Source: a virus
Virus record (IMG/VR): IMGVR_UViG_3300010389_000028
Coordinates: 1-47,450 of that record
Reading direction: 5' to 3' (one strand)
Length of the DNA: 47,450 nt
Part shown: positions 22 through 9,856 of the stretch, in pieces
Layout of the letters: each line of letters starts with the position of its first letter
How positions within the stretch are numbered: position 1 is the first letter of the stretch
The notes under the pieces: generated by a model
What the model saw: the letters and a program-made list of their open reading frames with translations, nothing else
Databases searched by the model: none
What the model was told of the DNA's origin: nothing
Program-made: the position numbers and the translations under genes

Positions 22-342
22 TTATACCCAATCTAATTTTGCTGGATGATATCTCTTATCTTGTTTAATTATAATATTTTTTTCCGAATCCTCTGATACA
101 TAAATGTTCTGCACAATAGCTCCAGGATATTCGTCTTGAAGGTATTCTGCCAATTCAGTCCTTGTTGGAATTCCATTTTCAGTCATCATAGAAATTCTAT
201 GAATGTTCCCTCTATAAACAATATCAGCAGAAAATTCTTCACCAACTTCTTTCTGAAGATCTTCACCTCCAACAATTAGTGTTCCATTAAAATCTCCAGA
301 GATATTAACACTCTCTGATAAAAACTCTTTGAATGATTTCAT
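22..342 (-). CDS. 106-aa protein with capsid-targeting-like leader
   Basis: No family with known function was recognised. Residues 1-10 (MKSFKEFLSE) closely resemble the capsid-targeting leader of T4 internal head proteins (MKTYQEFIAE) and end in an L-x-E motif, the type cut by the prohead protease gp21. Residues 37-86 are a compact module with Y-R-G, P-T-R-T-E-L, L-Q-D-E-Y-P-G and V-Q-x-x-Y-V-S elements; the same module occurs inside the adjacent 659-aa protein (about residues 465-515). The ATG lies one base after that gene's stop, so the two are probably translated together. Inference: a small protein packaged into the head and trimmed after residue 10. It could instead be an unprocessed structural protein. 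Confidence 0.85.
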   Translation of the reverse strand: MKSFKEFLSESVNISGDFNGTLIVGGEDLQKEVGEEFSADIVYRGNIHRISMMTENGIPTRTELAEYLQDEYPGAIVQNIYVSEDSEKNIIIKQDKRYHPAKLDWV

Positions 343-343
343 A

Positions 344-2323
344 TCAGCAGTTCCAAGCTCTTAAACTTTTGTTAATTCTGCTATCTGGATCATTAGCAGT
401 TTTAGATGAAGTTAATTTTTCCTTCATACCTTTCATTCTTGCACAGAATGATGCTCTCCTTTTATTGCCAACCTTCTTTGATGGTGCCTTTAAGTCGCTG
501 CCAGGATTTTCTCTTTCATAGGACTTTCTACCTTTCTCATTTAAACCACCTTCTTTATTCTGCCCCTCTTTACGTGTCCAGGCAGCGCCTTCTTCTATTT
601 CAACTTCTTCCTTTTTCATTGCTGCTTTTTTTGCTGCAACTTTAGCAAGAAGTCTTTCTCTTGCTGCTTCTCTTTCATCCTTAGGAATATTGAACATATT
701 CCTATCAGTCTTCAGTCTCTCTTTAGGTGGTTCAACTTCTTCATTCATTTTGCCAACATTAATGTATGGGTCATTTGAATCAATAGTTGATACATCAAAT
801 CTCTGAACCTTTGATCCAGGATATACCTTTTGAAGTGCTGCCTCAACTTCTTGTCTAGAAGGTCTCTTGAGTTCTGGGAAGAACATCTTCATCATCATGA
901 ATTTTCCTCTCCACTGGAAGGAAACCAAATAGACATTTCCACTTTGGGATGGAACTCTAACAGACTCTCCCATTGGTTTTACATAATTTTTATCTGGACC
1001 TGGTTTTGCTGCATCTCCACCACGTAGTCTCTTGCATTCACATGGACACTTTCCACATCTTTCACAAACTTCTGCTTGCTCACTCACAGATTTCCAACTA
1101 CCACCTGCTTTCTTATATTCTTTAGCAGCCCAACCATTAGCATAAGCAGAAGGATATACATCAAACTTTGCTTTTGCTCTTGCCTTCATTTTGGACCAAA
1201 GTGCTGGATTGGTGGGAACATTCTTTTCCTCAAGAGTTTGAAGTTCCAACTGTCCTTGATATCTTTCAAGTACTCTTCTTACAACAGGACTTGCACTTTC
1301 ACTTACAGAGACACAGTTGGGGACCATCTTCCCACCCTTCTTTTTCATTCCCACTTGCTTATATCCAGTCCAGCAAGGATCTTTTGCTTCACTCATCTCA
1401 TCATCTTTCATGATGCCACCATTAGGCATTAAATGATAACCTTTTGGAATAGGCTTGCACTTATTTTCTCTATTGCAGAAATACTGACCTTCTGGACATT
1501 TTTTTTCTGCTTCATCCATTGATCCATGAACATTATGTTCACCACTATCAATATAATCAGCAGCTGCATCGATGTAATCTGCTGCTTTGGTAATTTTTGA
1601 TTGGACCCATGCCTCTACATTACCTTCACCCTTCATTTTTTTCTTGAGACGGTCTGCTGCCTTTTTAATTGTCTCAAGTTCAGAGCGAATCATGGAGTGT
1701 TCATGATCTGGTTGTTTCTTTGCTTCATTGAAGTTGAAAGATTCATGATTATCACCACTGGGGTGCTTCTTGTAGTCTTCTGGTTTTGAAAATGTTTTTA
1801 CCATTGTTGGTTTTGCACCTCCACTTTTTCCTTGCTGTCCAGGGTCTTGCTCTCTTTTTCTTCTTACTGCTGCACGAATCTTTGCTTCTCCCTTTTTCCC
1901 CTGTGCTTTTAGACTTGCTAATCTTTGAGAAGAAAAGCATTTTGGTGTTTTTCCTTTATCATCTGGTTCATTGGCACATGGTGACCCATCTGCTTGAACC
2001 CAACCAGGTTTTCCGTCCTTTGATTTTGATTTTCCAAACCAATCTCTCAAATCCTCATAAGCCATACCTCTTTTAGTATGCTTAATTTCGCCTTTTTGTT
2101 TGGCAATTAGTTTTTTTGAGATTTTTTCATAATCACCTACAGGATTTTCATCTGGAACCAGTTTTGGTTTTCTATCATATTCATCGACATCTCCATCATT
2201 ATCCCAGTCCACATACTGAACAGTAGCGTGATGAACTGACTGCTTCAGATCAAGATTTGGGTCCAACTGATGTTGTTTTCCCTTTAAATGTGGTGTTTTA
2301 TGAGAAAATTTTGGATTTTTCAT
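344..2323 (-). CDS. 659-aa modular mosaic protein (DUF5872/DUF6321-like modules)
   Basis: A lysine-rich, mostly hydrophilic protein that reads as a chain of small modules. In order: a calcium-loop-like DxDxDGDVDxxD at 39-50; a DUF5872-like basic region at about 86-175 (RGMAYEDLRDWF...CFSSQRL); a helical segment at 205-260 (RSELETIKKAAD...AWVQSKITKAADYI); Cys modules at 276-311 (CPEGQYFC...KCKPIPKGY) and 314-340 (DPCWTGYKQVG...VPNC); a YPSAYANGW region at 345-412; a Cys cluster C420, C423, C426, C428, C430; a paralogue of the 106-aa protein's module at 465-515; a charged helix at 533-561; and a DUF6321-like C-terminus at 578-659. Its ATG overlaps the stop of the 51-aa gene (ATGA). Function unknown; a structural or internal head protein is plausible. 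Family names are from memory and moderately sure. Confidence 0.88.
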   Translation of the reverse strand: MKNPKFSHKTPHLKGKQHQLDPNLDLKQSVHHATVQYVDWDNDGDVDEYDRKPKLVPDENPVGDYEKISKKLIAKQKGEIKHTKRGMAYEDLRDWFGKSKSKDGKPGWVQADGSPCANEPDDKGKTPKCFSSQRLASLKAQGKKGEAKIRAAVRRKREQDPGQQGKSGGAKPTMVKTFSKPEDYKKHPSGDNHESFNFNEAKKQPDHEHSMIRSELETIKKAADRLKKKMKGEGNVEAWVQSKITKAADYIDAAADYIDSGEHNVHGSMDEAEKKCPEGQYFCNRENKCKPIPKGYHLMPNGGIMKDDEMSEAKDPCWTGYKQVGMKKKGGKMVPNCVSVSESASPVVRRVLERYQGQLELQTLEEKNVPTNPALWSKMKARAKAKFDVYPSAYANGWAAKEYKKAGGSWKSVSEQAEVCERCGKCPCECKRLRGGDAAKPGPDKNYVKPMGESVRVPSQSGNVYLVSFQWRGKFMMMKMFFPELKRPSRQEVEAALQKVYPGSKVQRFDVSTIDSNDPYINVGKMNEEVEPPKERLKTDRNMFNIPKDEREAARERLLAKVAAKKAAMKKEEVEIEEGAAWTRKEGQNKEGGLNEKGRKSYERENPGSDLKAPSKKVGNKRRASFCARMKGMKEKLTSSKTANDPDSRINKSLRAWNC

Positions 2324-2475
2324 TCAACTGGTTTTGATTTAGTTTCTTCACCTTTTGCTCTCTTTCTTCTTGCTGCACAATGTGCACGTTGAGAAAACCC
2401 TTTGGGGTTTGAGCAATCAATACTCTTTTTATATTTATTAGTCCACTCTTCTTGAAATTCTTTAAATGTTTTCAC
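2320..2475 (-). CDS. 51-aa basic protein, GTG start
   Basis: A short reading frame between the S74 protein and the 659-aa protein. It begins GTG (VKTFKEFQEEW) and ends ...KSKPVE, with its stop overlapping the next ATG as ATGA. The centre reads SIDCSNPKGFSQRAHCAARRKR, a two-cysteine basic motif seen in many T4-like cyanophage structural-region proteins (from memory). The N-terminus resembles the leader of the 106-aa protein (KTFKEF versus KSFKEF). The GTG sits very close to the upstream GAGAAG; an in-frame TTG three codons earlier is an alternative start. Function unknown. Confidence 0.72.
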   Translation of the reverse strand: MKTFKEFQEEWTNKYKKSIDCSNPKGFSQRAHCAARRKRAKGEETKSKPVE

Positions 2476-4354: not shown

Positions 4355-7300
4355 TCACTTTTTGAGTTCTGCAATCTCAGCCTTGAGGGCTTCAATTTGC
4401 TGACCCTGTTCCTTAACTGCCTCAATCAGAACACCAATGAGACCATTGTAGTTAACAGTCTTATGTGTGTCACCAGTTTGAACCAGTTGTGGAAGATGCT
4501 CTTCAATCTGTTGAGCAATTACACCAATGGTCTCTTGACCATTTGACTTCCAGGTGAAATGTACACCTTCGAGTTTGCCAACAAGTTCAGAAGCTCCCTC
4601 AACAACTCTGATATTATCCTTGAGGTTTCTATCAGAAGTTGAGTTGAAGTTAGGTGCTTCAACATCTTTGTTGGATACAAACTTATCACCAGTAGAAGCA
4701 TATGTGAAGGTTGCATTTGCACCATCAACTGTCAGACCAGCACCATCTGCAGCAGCTGCACTAGCAGCACCACTTGCAACAACAATGTTGAGGTCGTCTA
4801 CTGTCAGAGTAGTGGAATTGATTGTAGTGGTAGTACCATTAACAGTCAAGTTTCCAGTAACAGTAAGATCACCACCAACTTCAGCATCACTAGAAATGGT
4901 TGTAACTCCAGTAACAACAATACCATTAGTATTTGCCTGGACAATTACACTTCCACCATTATCCTTCAGTGCAGTTGCATCAATTCCAGTGAGGTTTGAA
5001 CCATCACCATAGAATGAGGTAGCAGTAACTGAAGTGATGCCAGAGATGTTTGAGGTGTTGACCCAACCTGATCCATTGTAGGATAAGATTTGACCTGAAG
5101 AAGAACTTGTTAAAGTTACATCTGACAGATCATTCAAGCTATTGACTGAACCTGATCCAGTACCAGCAGTATTATAGGAAACAAGTTCTACAGTATCTCC
5201 ACCAAAAGCAGCTTCAGACAGAGTAACACTTGTACCATTGGTAGCAGTGTACTCACTAGAAGACAGTTTAACACCATTCAGATATACATCAAGGTAGTTT
5301 ACATTATAATTGAAACTGAATGCTGTTTGACCTGCAGTTGCAGTAAATGTCTGAGTTGTTCTGGTTTGTGGCAGAACATCTGCAATATCTGCCCAGGAAA
5401 CACCTGCACCAACTGCCTTCAGGATATAACCAGAAGTTCCAGTGCTGCTGTTTGTATCTGCAAGAGTTCCAGTAATTTCAATATTGGTGAATGTTGAAAT
5501 TCCTGAAGAAGCATAAACATTGCCAGTCAGATCGCCAGTAACATTACCCGTTACGTTTCCAGTGAGATCACCAGTTACGTCTCCAGTTACATTACCTGTA
5601 ACATCGCCAGTCAGATCACCTGTAACATTTCCAGTTACATTACCAGTAAGGTCTCCAGTTACATCACCTGTAACATTTCCAGTTACATTACCAGTGAGAT
5701 CACCAGTTACGTCTCCAGTAACATTACCTGTAACATCACCAGTAAGGTCACCTGTTACGTTACCAGTTACGTTACCAGTCAGGTCACCTGTAACATCACC
5801 TGTCACATTACCTGTAACATCACCTGTAAGATCACCAGTTACGTTACCTGTTACGTTACCTGTAACATCGCCAGTCAGATCTCCAGTGACATTTCCAGTA
5901 ACATTACCAGTCAGGTCACCTGTAACGTCACCAGTAACATTTCCTGTTACATTACCAGTCAGATCTCCAGTTACATCTCCTGTTACATTACCAGTAAGAT
6001 TTCCTGAGAAACCACTAGTTGCAGTAATAACACCGGAAGCACTTACACTTACCAATGAGATATTATCATCAAGATTAATGGTAACAGTATCTGAAGCAGC
6101 AGATGAAGTCAGGTTTGTTCCACCAGCAATTGTTAACGTCTCAGTTAACATATTAATGGTTTCTGAACCAGTGTCACCAGCAACAGTCATTCCTGTAGAA
6201 ACAGTAGCTTCACCAGCAACGGTTAATCTACCTTTAGAATCGACAGTGAAAGTTGGAATTGCAGTTGAAGAACCGTAAGATCCAGCAGTTACACCTGAGT
6301 TGGCAAGAGTCAGAACTAAATCTACATTTCCAGTTCCATCGAATGAAACAGCTGATGCTGTTGCATCTCCAGATGCACTAAAATCTCTAGAAGTTTGGAG
6401 TGCAGTTGCAGTATCGGCATTACCAGTAAGATCACCAGTTACGTCTCCGGTTACATCTCCAGTTACATTACCAGTCAGATCTCCAGTTACGTTACCTGTT
6501 ACGTTACCTGTAAGGTCTCCAGTTACATCACCTGTAACATTTCCAGTAACATTGCCCGTTACGTTTCCAGTGAGATCACCAGTTACGTCTCCAGTGACAT
6601 TACCTGTTACATTACCTGTAAGATCACCAGTTACGTCTCCTGTAACATCGCCAGTAACATTACCAGTGAGATTCCCTGAGAAACCACCAGTTGAAGTTGT
6701 AACACCAGAAACTTCCAGTTGACCAAGAGTTCCAACAGAAGTCAGTGAAGAATTAACTACATTTGAACCAAGAGTAGTTGAAGACAGAACTTCAGTGTTA
6801 TTGATCTTATAAACCTTGCCAGATGCAAGATTCATATTTTCAGATGAACCAAAGTTATCTCCAGTTGCTTCAAACTGGAATGTCTTATTTCCATCACCAG
6901 ATTGAACTGTAATACCACCACCATTAGCAGCAGCATCATTAGCAGCTCCATCAGCCAGCATTACATTCAGGTCATTGACTGTAACAGTCGTGCTGTTGAT
7001 GATTGTTTGAGTACCTTCAACCTGAAGATCACCAAGAATGAATACTGTACCAGTATTGTCGCCAACACCAGCAGGGTCAAGGGTGATTGAAGAAGGTCCA
7101 GTAATAGTGTCACTGTTGACAATGATAGCACTTCCTTCTGCACCAGTTGCGAAAGATGATGCTGTGATAATGCCAGAAGCATTAACAGTAGCAAGATTGA
7201 TATCATTATCAAGATTGATTGTAATAGTGTCAGATGCAGCAGCTGAAGTCAGGTTTGTTCCACCAGCAATTGTCAGAGTTTCTGTAAGAAGATCAATGTT

Positions 7301-9856
7301 CTCTGATCCACTGTCACCAGCAACAGTCAATGCTGTTCCAACAGATGCAGTAGAAACTGCTGTTACAAGACCTTTAGCATTAACTGTAACTACAGGAATT
7401 GCAGTTGATGAACCATAAGAACCAACATCAGAATTTACAGTTGCTAAAGTAAGTGCAAGATCAACATTGCCAGTTCCGTCAAAAGATACTGCTGAAGCAG
7501 ATGCGTCGCCACTTGCAGAGAAATCTCTAGAAGTTTGGAGTGCAGTTGCAGTGTCTGCATTACCAGTAACATCACCTGTAACATTTCCAGTTACATTACC
7601 AGTAAGGTCTCCTGTAACATCACCTGTAACATTACCTGTTACATTACCAGTAAGGTCTCCAGTTACATCACCAGTAAGGTTTCCAGTAACATTACCTGTT
7701 ACGTTACCTGTAAGGTCTCCAGTTACATCACCAGTAAGGTCACCTGTTACGTTACCTGTTACGTTACCAGTGAGATCACCAGTTACGTCTCCAGTGACAT
7801 TTCCAGTTACGTTACCTGTTACGTTACCAGTCAGATCGCCTGTTACATCACCAGTAAGGTTTCCAGTAACATTACCTGTTACGTTACCTGTAAGGTCTCC
7901 AGTTACGTCTCCAGTGACATTACCTGTTACATTACCTGTAAGATCACCAGTTACGTCTCCAGTGACATTTCCAGTTACGTTACCAGTAACATTACCTGTA
8001 AGGTCTCCAGTTACATCGCCAGTCAGATCCCCAGTTACATTACCAGTTACGTTACCAGTCAGATCACCAGTTACATCGCCTGTTACATTACCTGTTACAT
8101 TACCTGTAAGGTCTCCAGTTACATCACCAGTTACGTTACCAGTTACATCACCGGTTACGTTACCAGTCAGATCGCCTGTTACATCGCCAGTAACATTACC
8201 AGTTACATTACCTGTGAGGTCACCTGTAACATCACCTGTTACGTTACCAGTTACATTACCAGTAAGGTCTCCAGTTACATCACCAGTCAGATCTCCATCA
8301 AATCCACTAGTAGCAGTAATGACACCTGTAGCAGTAACAGTAGTCAGTGAAATCTCATCATTGAGATTGATGGTAATTGTATCTGAAGCAGCAGATGAAG
8401 TCAGGTTTGTTCCACCTGAAATAGTAAGTGTCTCATTCAGAAGTTGAATAGTTTCTGAACCAGTGTCACCAGCAACAGTAAGATCAGTTCCAACAGATGT
8501 TGTTCCTGCAGCAGTTAATCTACCTTTAGAGTCAACTGTGAATGTAGGAATCTCTGAGGATGAACCATAAGATCCAGCAGTTACACCTGAGTTGGCAAGA
8601 GTCAGAGCAAGATCAACATTACCTGTTCCATCGAATGAAACAGCTGATGCTGTTGCATCTCCAGATGCACTAAAATCTCTAGCAGTTTCAAGTGCTGTAG
8701 CTGTATCAGCATTACCAGTCAGGTCACCAGTTACGTCTCCAGTTACATTACCTGTAACATCACCAGTAAGATCACCTGTTACGTTACCAGTCAAGTTTCC
8801 TGAGAAACCACCAGATGCAGTAACAATTCCTGTTGAATTTACATTACCAACATCTAATTTGCCAAGAGTTCCAACAGAAGTCAGTGAAGAACTAACTACA
8901 CCTGATCCAAGAGTATCTCCTGAAAGAACATCAGTATTATTAATCTTATATGTCTTTCCAGTAGCAAGATTTAAGTTTTCTGATGAACCGAAGTTATCAC
9001 CAGTTGACTCAAATTGGAAAGTTTTATTTCCATCACCAGAATTAACAGTAATACCTGCTCCATCAGCAGCTGCATCATTAGCAGCTCCATCAGCAACCTG
9101 GATGTTCTTATCATTAACAGTTACAGTAGTACTATTAATGATTGTCTGTGTACCATCAACTTGCAGGTCACCTTTAATGATAACAAGACCTGTGTTATCA
9201 CCAACGCCAGCAGGGTCAAGAGTGATTGAAGATGGTCCAGTAATTGAATCAGAACTAATTCTGATTGCAGAACCCTCTGAACCTGTGTGGAATTGGGTGG
9301 CAGTTACAACGCCTGTAGTGTAGAGATCTCCAGTTACATTACCAGTCAGGTTTCCAGTAACATTACCTGTTACGTTACCAGTGAGATCACCAGTTACGTC
9401 TCCAGTAACATTGCCAGTGACATTACCAGTGAGATCGCCAGTTACGTCTCCTGTTACATCGCCAGTAACATTACCAGTTACATTACCTGTGAGGTCACCT
9501 GTAACATCACCTGTTACGTTACCTGTTACGTTACCAGTGAGATCACCAGTTACGTCTCCAGTTAGGTCTCCTGTCACATTACCTGTGACATTACCAGTCA
9601 GGTCACCTGTAACGTCACCTGTTACGTTACCTGTTACGTTACCAGTCAGATCGCCTGTTACATCACCAACAAAACCTCCAAGTGAAGTTGTTACTCCACT
9701 AATATGTGCATCGCCATTTACTGTTAACTTTGATCCTGGGGTAGCAGAACCAATACCAACATTTGTGCCAGATGCTGTAGTAATTCCAATATAGTTTGCT
9801 GACGCATCTAATGCTAGATATGCAGCAAATTGTGATAGCTCTCTATTAAAAGCCAT
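4355..9856 (-). CDS. Giant repeat tail fibre (1833 aa) with peptidase S74 domain
   Basis: The N-terminus (RELSQFA, then PGSKLTVNGDAHISG) is an attachment-type module shared with the 337-aa protein. About 640 residues in five blocks are uninterrupted G-[DN]-[VL]-T tetrapeptides, alternating with globular beta modules: three copies beginning NADTATAL.T.RDFSASGD and two beginning EGSAI...GPSSITLDPAGVGDNTG. Near residues 1500-1565 is an AGQTAF...LDVYLNGVKL...AAFGGD module shared with the C1q-like fibre. The C-terminus (about 1740-1833) is an S74 chaperone with S1741-D1742 cleavage site, K1746, IGVIAQQIEE and VNYNGLIGVLIEAVKEQ. Expected role: a long trimeric host-recognition fibre whose repeats form a beta-helical shaft. 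The ribosome site is AAGGAG. The 5' leader of about 75-80 bases may mask it by pairing. Confidence 0.93.
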   Translation of the reverse strand: MAFNRELSQFAAYLALDASANYIGITTASGTNVGIGSATPGSKLTVNGDAHISGVTTSLGGFVGDVTGDLTGNVTGNVTGDVTGDLTGNVTGNVTGDLTGDVTGDLTGNVTGNVTGDVTGDLTGNVTGNVTGDVTGDVTGDLTGNVTGNVTGDVTGDLTGNVTGNVTGNLTGNVTGDLYTTGVVTATQFHTGSEGSAIRISSDSITGPSSITLDPAGVGDNTGLVIIKGDLQVDGTQTIINSTTVTVNDKNIQVADGAANDAAADGAGITVNSGDGNKTFQFESTGDNFGSSENLNLATGKTYKINNTDVLSGDTLGSGVVSSSLTSVGTLGKLDVGNVNSTGIVTASGGFSGNLTGNVTGDLTGDVTGNVTGDVTGDLTGNADTATALETARDFSASGDATASAVSFDGTGNVDLALTLANSGVTAGSYGSSSEIPTFTVDSKGRLTAAGTTSVGTDLTVAGDTGSETIQLLNETLTISGGTNLTSSAASDTITINLNDEISLTTVTATGVITATSGFDGDLTGDVTGDLTGNVTGNVTGDVTGDLTGNVTGNVTGDVTGDLTGNVTGDVTGNVTGDVTGDLTGNVTGNVTGDVTGDLTGNVTGNVTGDLTGDVTGDLTGNVTGNVTGNVTGDVTGDLTGNVTGNVTGDVTGDLTGNVTGNVTGNLTGDVTGDLTGNVTGNVTGNVTGDVTGDLTGNVTGNVTGDLTGDVTGDLTGNVTGNVTGNLTGDVTGDLTGNVTGNVTGDVTGDLTGNVTGNVTGDVTGNADTATALQTSRDFSASGDASASAVSFDGTGNVDLALTLATVNSDVGSYGSSTAIPVVTVNAKGLVTAVSTASVGTALTVAGDSGSENIDLLTETLTIAGGTNLTSAAASDTITINLDNDINLATVNASGIITASSFATGAEGSAIIVNSDTITGPSSITLDPAGVGDNTGTVFILGDLQVEGTQTIINSTTVTVNDLNVMLADGAANDAAANGGGITVQSGDGNKTFQFEATGDNFGSSENMNLASGKVYKINNTEVLSSTTLGSNVVNSSLTSVGTLGQLEVSGVTTSTGGFSGNLTGNVTGDVTGDVTGDLTGNVTGNVTGDVTGDLTGNVTGNVTGNVTGDVTGDLTGNVTGNVTGDLTGNVTGDVTGDVTGDLTGNADTATALQTSRDFSASGDATASAVSFDGTGNVDLVLTLANSGVTAGSYGSSTAIPTFTVDSKGRLTVAGEATVSTGMTVAGDTGSETINMLTETLTIAGGTNLTSSAASDTVTINLDDNISLVSVSASGVITATSGFSGNLTGNVTGDVTGDLTGNVTGNVTGDVTGDLTGNVTGNVTGDLTGDVTGNVTGNVTGDLTGDVTGNVTGDVTGDLTGNVTGNVTGDLTGDVTGNVTGDVTGDLTGNVTGNVTGDVTGDLTGNVTGNVTGDLTGDVTGNVTGDVTGDLTGNVTGNVTGDLTGNVYASSGISTFTNIEITGTLADTNSSTGTSGYILKAVGAGVSWADIADVLPQTRTTQTFTATAGQTAFSFNYNVNYLDVYLNGVKLSSSEYTATNGTSVTLSEAAFGGDTVELVSYNTAGTGSGSVNSLNDLSDVTLTSSSSGQILSYNGSGWVNTSNISGITSVTATSFYGDGSNLTGIDATALKDNGGSVIVQANTNGIVVTGVTTISSDAEVGGDLTVTGNLTVNGTTTTINSTTLTVDDLNIVVASGAASAAAADGAGLTVDGANATFTYASTGDKFVSNKDVEAPNFNSTSDRNLKDNIRVVEGASELVGKLEGVHFTWKSNGQETIGVIAQQIEEHLPQLVQTGDTHKTVNYNGLIGVLIEAVKEQGQQIEALKAEIAELKK
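5516..6004 (-). repeat. Tetrapeptide (12-bp) repeat block 5
   Basis: About 40 consecutive G[DN][VL]T units. Each 12-bp unit is degenerate at synonymous positions (plus strand: CCAGTTACATTA, CCAGTAAGATCA and variants). Confidence 0.95.
6005..6418 (-). repeat. Inter-block module A, copy 3 (414 bp)
   Basis: Encodes NADTATALQTSRDFSASGDATASAV...SGF between blocks 4 and 5. It has the same length as copy 1 (8297-8710) with closely similar sequence, pointing to internal duplication. Confidence 0.85.
6419..6676 (-). repeat. Tetrapeptide repeat block 4
   Basis: About 21 consecutive G[DN][VL]T units of 12 bp, flanked by a GFSG module end and a NADTATAL module start. Confidence 0.95.
6677..7558 (-). 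repeat. Inter-block modules A (copy 2) and B (copy 2)
   Basis: Encodes a NADTATALQTSRDFSASGDASASAV module followed by an EGSAIIVNSDTITGPSSITLDP module. These parallel modules A and B elsewhere in the gene with diverged codons. Confidence 0.8.
7559..8296 (-). repeat. Tetrapeptide repeat block 3 (longest)
   Basis: About 61 consecutive G[DN][VL]T units over 738 bp with no interruption. There is a recurring higher-order pattern of four units, GDVT-GDLT-GNVT-GNVT. Confidence 0.95.
8297..8710 (-). repeat. Inter-block module A, copy 1 (414 bp)
   Basis: Encodes NADTATALETARDFSASGDATASAV...TSGFDG between blocks 2 and 3. Same length as copy 3. Confidence 0.85.
8711..8800 (-). repeat. Tetrapeptide repeat block 2 (short)
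   Basis: Seven to eight G[DN][VL]T units between modules B and A. The large difference in unit number between blocks (7 to 61) fits repeat expansion and contraction. Confidence 0.93.
8801..9322 (-). repeat. Inter-block module B, copy 1
   Basis: Encodes YTTGVVTATQFHTGSEGSAI...GPSSITLDPAGVGDNTG...SGGFSG, similar to the module B copy that follows in the protein. Confidence 0.8.
9323..9667 (-). repeat. Tetrapeptide repeat block 1
   Basis: About 28 consecutive G[DN][VL]T units directly after the N-terminal attachment module (GFV-GDVT...). Confidence 0.95.

Follow-up and report, generated by a model that had tools for sequence, protein, structure and literature searches.

A predicted T4-like capsid-targeting leader on a small cyanophage protein and on unrelated proteins of marine T4-like phages

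A small leader-bearing gene in a T4-like late region

The window, i.e., the whole stretch of DNA analysed here, is a virus record of 47,450 bases with a T4-like late-gene region, in which the tail and neck gene names are our own reading from PHROG matches and synteny. The minus-strand open reading frame at 22-342 lies in a late-gene position between the terminase subunits, adjoins a DUF6321 gene and encodes a 106-aa protein with the N-terminus MKSFKEFLSE|SV (the bar marks the predicted cut). The features on which the argument rests are the following:

22..342 (-): gene of the 106-aa protein (ATG at 342-340, stop at 24-22; start MKSFKEFLSESVNISG / MKSFKEFLSESVNISGDFNG), with a CTS-like leader, a flexible linker and a small bbab domain; PHROG 1742
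313..342 (-): leader codons, residues 1-10 (MKSFKEFLSE), with predicted targeting by F4 and F7, predicted processing at L8 and E10, and a predicted helix at 4-11
310..315 (-): predicted gp21-type cleavage point E10/S11 (FLSE|S), placed by the L/I-x-E consensus (PMC9026906) from sequence only
97..240 (-): bbab domain, residues 35-82, shared with the adjoining 659-aa protein and, in S-SCSM1 and S-CREM2, with virion proteins detected by MS
344..2323 (-): 659-aa DUF6321 protein, encoded immediately upstream in the direction of transcription; its S-SCSM1 homologue gp029 is labelled a virion protein; a mosaic in which several of the module borders show L/I/V/M-x-E
764..964 (-): the bbab domain again, within the 659-aa protein and after MGE|SVRVP
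2320..2475 (-): second leader gene of the window, with a GTG start, MKTFKEFQEEWTNKYKKSIDC... (MKTFKEFQEEW...) and a SIDC module; F4 and F7 are kept and position 8 is Q

The match of the 106-aa protein to PHROG 1742 (8e-32), a family without assigned function, indicates a real gene, and tblastn with the protein gave matches in 137 phage records, cyanophages in every case; the Pfam search matched no family. PHROG 1742 is a conserved family of T4-like cyanophages. Among the genomes checked, it is absent from S-SM1, Syn9, S-PM2 and P-SSM2, and thus it is not essential. The gp21 region lies beyond the reach of this 47-kb fragment, within which gp21 is not found. Elsewhere in the window (4355-9856, minus strand), there is a tail fibre-like protein of 1,833 aa composed mostly of GNVTGDVTGDLTG repeats, whose chaperone-type C-terminus resembles those of other window proteins.

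The sequence-only reading of this DNA had likened the first ten residues of the 106-aa protein to the leader of the T4 internal proteins, and this likeness is confirmed. In the T4 IPIII leader, as summarized in a review of T4 head assembly, mutations map targeting to residues 4 and 7 and processing to residues 8 and 10, and gp21 cleaves after L/I-x-E (PMC9026906). The leader of the 106-aa protein agrees with that of IPIII at all four mapped positions (F4, F7, L8 and E10); the match thus falls on functional positions, two for targeting and two for gp21 cleavage. Among 52 homologues, M1, K2, F4, F7 and E10 are invariant, S11 is nearly invariant, and position 8 is L or I (M in a few others). Because the leader peptide was among the probes of that search, the search was repeated with the body alone, and the leader is kept in 15 of the 15 homologues retrieved in this way. 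The leader codons vary synonymously among homologues at positions 3, 4, 6, 7, 8, 10 and 11, and therefore selection acts on the peptide. This freedom also decides against reading the conserved start as an RNA element, such as a translational operator: the location at gene starts would suit such an element, but the codons vary as described, the Cas9-like ORF12 of S-CREM2 has the motif some 18-25 residues from its N-terminus, and there may be copies at C-termini. We reject the RNA element on codon variation and leave it only a minimal probability. Judged by the residues compared, the leader on the 106-aa protein is not a product of chance, and very probably it does serve as a signal for head targeting and processing.

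As a cyanophage counterpart of T4 capsid targeting, the leader system is well supported; in the literature searched (subscription journals lay outside its scope), we found no description of a capsid-targeting sequence in cyanophages. Like the T4 IPI-IPIII sequence (MKTYQEFIAE), the cyanophage leader is N-terminal and ten residues long, with K2, an aromatic residue at 4, F7, L or I at 8 and E10; in both cases it is common to otherwise unrelated proteins of phages with a gp21 protease. It differs in occurring in Kyanoviridae and other marine T4-like phages, in having F instead of Y at position 4 and in its unrelated cargo, for which packaging and cleavage are here predicted. T4 itself has a leader nearly identical to that of the 106-aa protein, on gp61.1 (MKTFKEFIKE..., L278 667-831, minus strand); however, gp61.1 is 54 aa long, its body is, by eye, like the segment of gp23 after its cut, and its gene lies beside the primase gene and not among late genes. 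gp61.1, which adjoins anti-toxin genes, may be an unrecognised capsid-targeted protein of T4.

Spread of the leader over unrelated proteins

To count the leader, we used a strict motif (aromatic, two residues, F, L/I/V/M, any residue, E), which occurs inside S-CREM2 proteins at 4.3e-5 per internal position. Over all fetched loci, which are enriched for two families, the strict motif marks 155 distinct proteins, compared with 0-2 for shifted or permuted motifs. A looser DNA pattern, M..[FY]..F..E, gave 14 matches in nine complete T4-like genomes versus 3 with the reversed pattern; in T4, it recovers gp61.1 and two MKTYQEFIAE genes, which we take to be those of IPII and IPIII. Most telling for specificity was a scan of IMG/VR with the leader DNA pattern, in which at least 120 stretches matched, while the codon-permuted control gave 0. 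Among the IMG/VR matches listed, there are 82 matches in 80 loci, 81 of them in open frames of at least 25 aa, and the cargo falls into about 32 families that are mutually dissimilar after the leader. In the same listed set, the cargo over the Pfam cut-off comprises ART-PolyVal ADP-ribosyltransferase, lytic transglycosylase and glucosaminidase; methyltransferase-like and GNAT-like proteins stay below the cut-off, and an NMNAT-like protein with the leader was recognized by eye. The leader-bearing ADP-ribosyltransferase-like proteins of uncultured viruses (loci L325, L305 and L371, with ART-PolyVal over the cut-off only in L325) recall T4 Alt.

Co-occurrence of the leader with gp21, which had been suggested for survey, holds in most of the large contigs: among the matches listed, the prohead protease family PF03420 (gp21-type) is encoded in 15 of the 24 leader contigs longer than 40 kb and Gp23 in 14 of the 24, leader contigs alone being counted. 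Furthermore, a gp21-family protease is annotated in both S-SCSM1 and S-CREM2, and gp23 of S-SCSM1 bears the related site SFLAE|A. These counts bear on another explanation, in which the leader is an N-terminal helix of a different role, for example oligomerisation or attachment to a protein of the tail or neck, and resembles the T4 leader by convergence on a common amphipathic pattern. The motif is indeed short, and a weaker form, [FY]..[FY]..E, also occurs in S-CREM2 proteins undetected in virions. Nevertheless, we consider such a helix improbable: the motif sits at the extreme N-terminus of about 32 unrelated families among the matches listed, residue 10 being glutamate, and the codon-permuted pattern gave 0 matches; the conserved residues are those mapped in T4; and the contigs that carry the leader encode the gp21 and gp23 families.

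A C-terminal version of the tag, possibly an uncleaved form, is suggested by proteins that end in KTFKEF[LIM]..I or similar (S-SCSM1 gp279, L005 41626-41835; L104, L122, L137), with six plausible cases versus three chance-like control matches. S-SCSM1 gp279 is labelled a virion protein, and the virion-detected, Cas9-like ORF12 of S-CREM2 has a similar KTFRDFLN at its C-terminus.

The leader on enzymes found in virions

The cyanophage NMNAT/cytidylyltransferase has been detected in virions of S-SCSM1, S-SZBM1, S-CREM2, S-CBWM1 and S-SM1 (as T4-GC190) (PMC9602691, PMC9146016, PMC10665884, PMC3037559). All 68 distinct homologue sequences retrieved with the catalytic core alone, which are closely related and one of which (L123) is covered to residue 7 only, start with MK[SNRH][FL]xxF[LI]xE|A. 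More distant NMNATs, from S-SM1, Syn9, S-RIM8, P-SSM2, Sf-FS3 and S-CREM2, agree on the leader; the leader of the S-SZBM1 enzyme is one residue shorter (MRFRQFIIE|A), and the NMNAT/GC190 protein of S-PM2 (p142, L289 2633-3805) is an exception without a leader. Sullivan et al. detected the GC190 protein in virions of S-SM1 but not in those of S-PM2, a contrast that fits leader-based packaging, though it is confounded by sensitivity.

S-CREM2, with 219 annotated genes and 52 published virion proteins, served as the test set. The strict leader is present on three of the 219 gene products, all MS-positive (Fisher p 0.013): a SAM hydrolase (MKDFDSFLEE), an APH/ChoK-like kinase (MKRFDAFLTE, GTG start) and the cytidylyltransferase, i.e., NMNAT (MKNFSSFLTE). 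With a relaxed leader allowed within the first 28 residues, seven of eight are MS-positive (p 0.0002), the additions including ORF13, ORF136 and the Cas9-like nuclease (LRFASFMAE|A), whose gene, ORF12 (L292 7704-10313, minus strand), is the one with the internal motif mentioned above. The enrichment test is not fully balanced, because MS-positive proteins are longer (median 327 aa versus 92 aa for undetected ones). A kinase of S-CRM01, related to that of S-CREM2, starts with MISFDQFLSE and is likewise reported from virions (cited in PMC10665884); S-CREM1, for which proteomics detected 14 proteins, was left out of the comparison. These virion-associated enzymes (NMNAT, SAM hydrolase, APH-like kinase and Cas9-like protein of S-CREM2, S-SCSM1, S-SZBM1 and S-CRM01) share with the 106-aa protein the same leader or a close variant; they are large and virion-detected, whereas the 106-aa protein is a small domain with no known enzymatic activity, and its homologues are absent from two virion lists.

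Indeed, the homologue in S-SCSM1 (gp030) is annotated as hypothetical with no virion label, while both its neighbours are labelled virion proteins; this proteome is shallow, and we counted 47 such labels in the annotation versus 45 proteins by MS in the paper. The S-SZBM1 homologue (S-SZBM1_191 by position) is not in the published virion list of 30 proteins of a likewise shallow study, though two nearby proteins are. Both homologue sequences contain ordinary tryptic peptides. The sequence-only reading had named absence from virion proteomes as evidence against it; the absence from these two lists counts in part against it, but both are shallow, and the 106-aa protein may be present at low copy or expelled. 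It is likely a member of the class of packaged internal proteins.

Body domain, prohead cargo and delivery

AlphaFold predicts that residues 4-11 of the 106-aa protein form a separate helix, that residues 11-33 are disordered and that residues 35-82 fold into the bbab domain (mean pLDDT 68; 79-88 over most of the domain). By sequence and structure comparison, the domain recurs in the 659-aa DUF6321 protein and in the DUF6321 virion protein of S-SCSM1; by eye, it is also found in the MS-positive ORF137 of S-CREM2, and a second leader-bearing protein of Sf-FS3 contains it as well. Against solved structures the domain has no significant match, and Foldseek returned none in the PDB at E below 0.3. 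Low-ranking Foldseek resemblances, with E-values of 0.5-0.8 and unsupported by sequence, to T7 Gp2 and to YkzG, a protein that interacts with RNA polymerase, are a lead only.

The cyanophage DUF6321 proteins (Pfam PF19846) are linked to the 106-aa protein by the adjoining gene, by the same bbab domain and by shorter members that start with leader variants; they differ in being large mosaics, and the 659-aa one of the window is without an N-terminal leader. Modules of the 659-aa protein occur elsewhere as small leader proteins, both the SIDC module (at 2320-2475 in the window and in others) and DUF6321 itself (S-SZBM1 gp084, MKTFKQYITE|A). Since the 2320-2475 product keeps F4 and F7 and has Q at position 8, it is predicted to be targeted but perhaps uncleaved. 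In other phages, where the SIDC module is fused to the large DUF6321 protein, the leader is missing. L/I/V/M/F-x-E stands just before the GAAWT module in 29 of 47 cases, compared with 12% at random, but neither the PSAYA nor the CxxGxYYC module is preceded by it. A regular polyprotein cut by gp21 is therefore only a partly supported reading of the 659-aa protein.

We propose, and consider it probable, that the gene at 22-342 encodes prohead cargo of a T4-like cyanophage, targeted by its leader, trimmed by a gp21-family protease and sharing its tag with other cargo. F4 and F7 of a short helix, formed by residues 1-10, would dock on the scaffolding core, and the protein would in this way be carried into the growing prohead. 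The protease would then cut after L8-x-E10, and the 96 residues left inside the head would comprise a disordered arm and the small bbab domain. A low number of copies of this product may stay and pass into the host along with the DNA; alternatively, part of it may be lost as the head matures. The leader would be a common tag on many unrelated proteins of marine T4-like phages. Head loading and trimming after E10, as first read from the letters, thus stand as predictions with good indirect support: they fit the T4-mapped positions, the same leader on virion-detected enzymes and the contigs with gp21, while the homologues are absent from two shallow virion lists.

A second course, which we hold to be possible though unlikely, is that the leader brings the protein to the prohead core, where it aids head assembly together with the DUF6321 protein before being cut and expelled ahead of DNA packaging, so that it is never delivered. 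T4 gp67 and gp68 are mostly cut and expelled before DNA packaging. The absence of homologues from the S-SCSM1 and S-SZBM1 virion lists would agree with such a fate, as would the late-gene site between the terminase subunits beside the DUF6321 gene and the bbab domain shared with a DUF6321 virion protein. However, two proteins with the same bbab domain, S-CREM2 ORF137 and the DUF6321 protein of S-SCSM1, remain in virions, and the compact domain predicted for the mature body need not be further digested.

For cargo retained in the head, the question is what it does in the host. T4 IPI and Alt are injected anti-host or anti-restriction effectors. The suggestion that the 106-aa protein is an anti-host effector is speculative: Pfam, solved-structure and Foldseek searches of its body found no host target or enzymatic fold, and bearing the tag is not in itself a sign of an effector, because the leader is also on proteins that look structural or core-like.

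The leader finding is, by the motif comparisons, wider than first noted, in that many unrelated marine phage proteins carry it. At about even odds, we put forward that a single cleavable leader of ten residues serves marine T4-like phages as a general delivery code. It would load a broad and exchangeable range of proteins into the head, to be released into the host when infection begins; this range would comprise NMNAT, SAM hydrolase, kinases, a Cas9-like protein, ADP-ribosyltransferases, proteins resembling methyltransferases or muramidases, and small domains like that of the 106-aa protein. If this is true, the leader alone would predict packaged cargo in uncultured viruses. Cyanophage proteomics left undecided whether the enzymes found in virions are packaged or contaminants (PMC9602691, PMC10665884). 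That these enzymes bear a conserved leader of the head-targeting kind gives testable ground for thinking them packaged. NMNAT is a cyanophage core gene, and therefore the packaging question touches most T4-like cyanophages. The leader also provides a simple sequence rule for seeking early-delivered proteins in uncultured ocean viruses.
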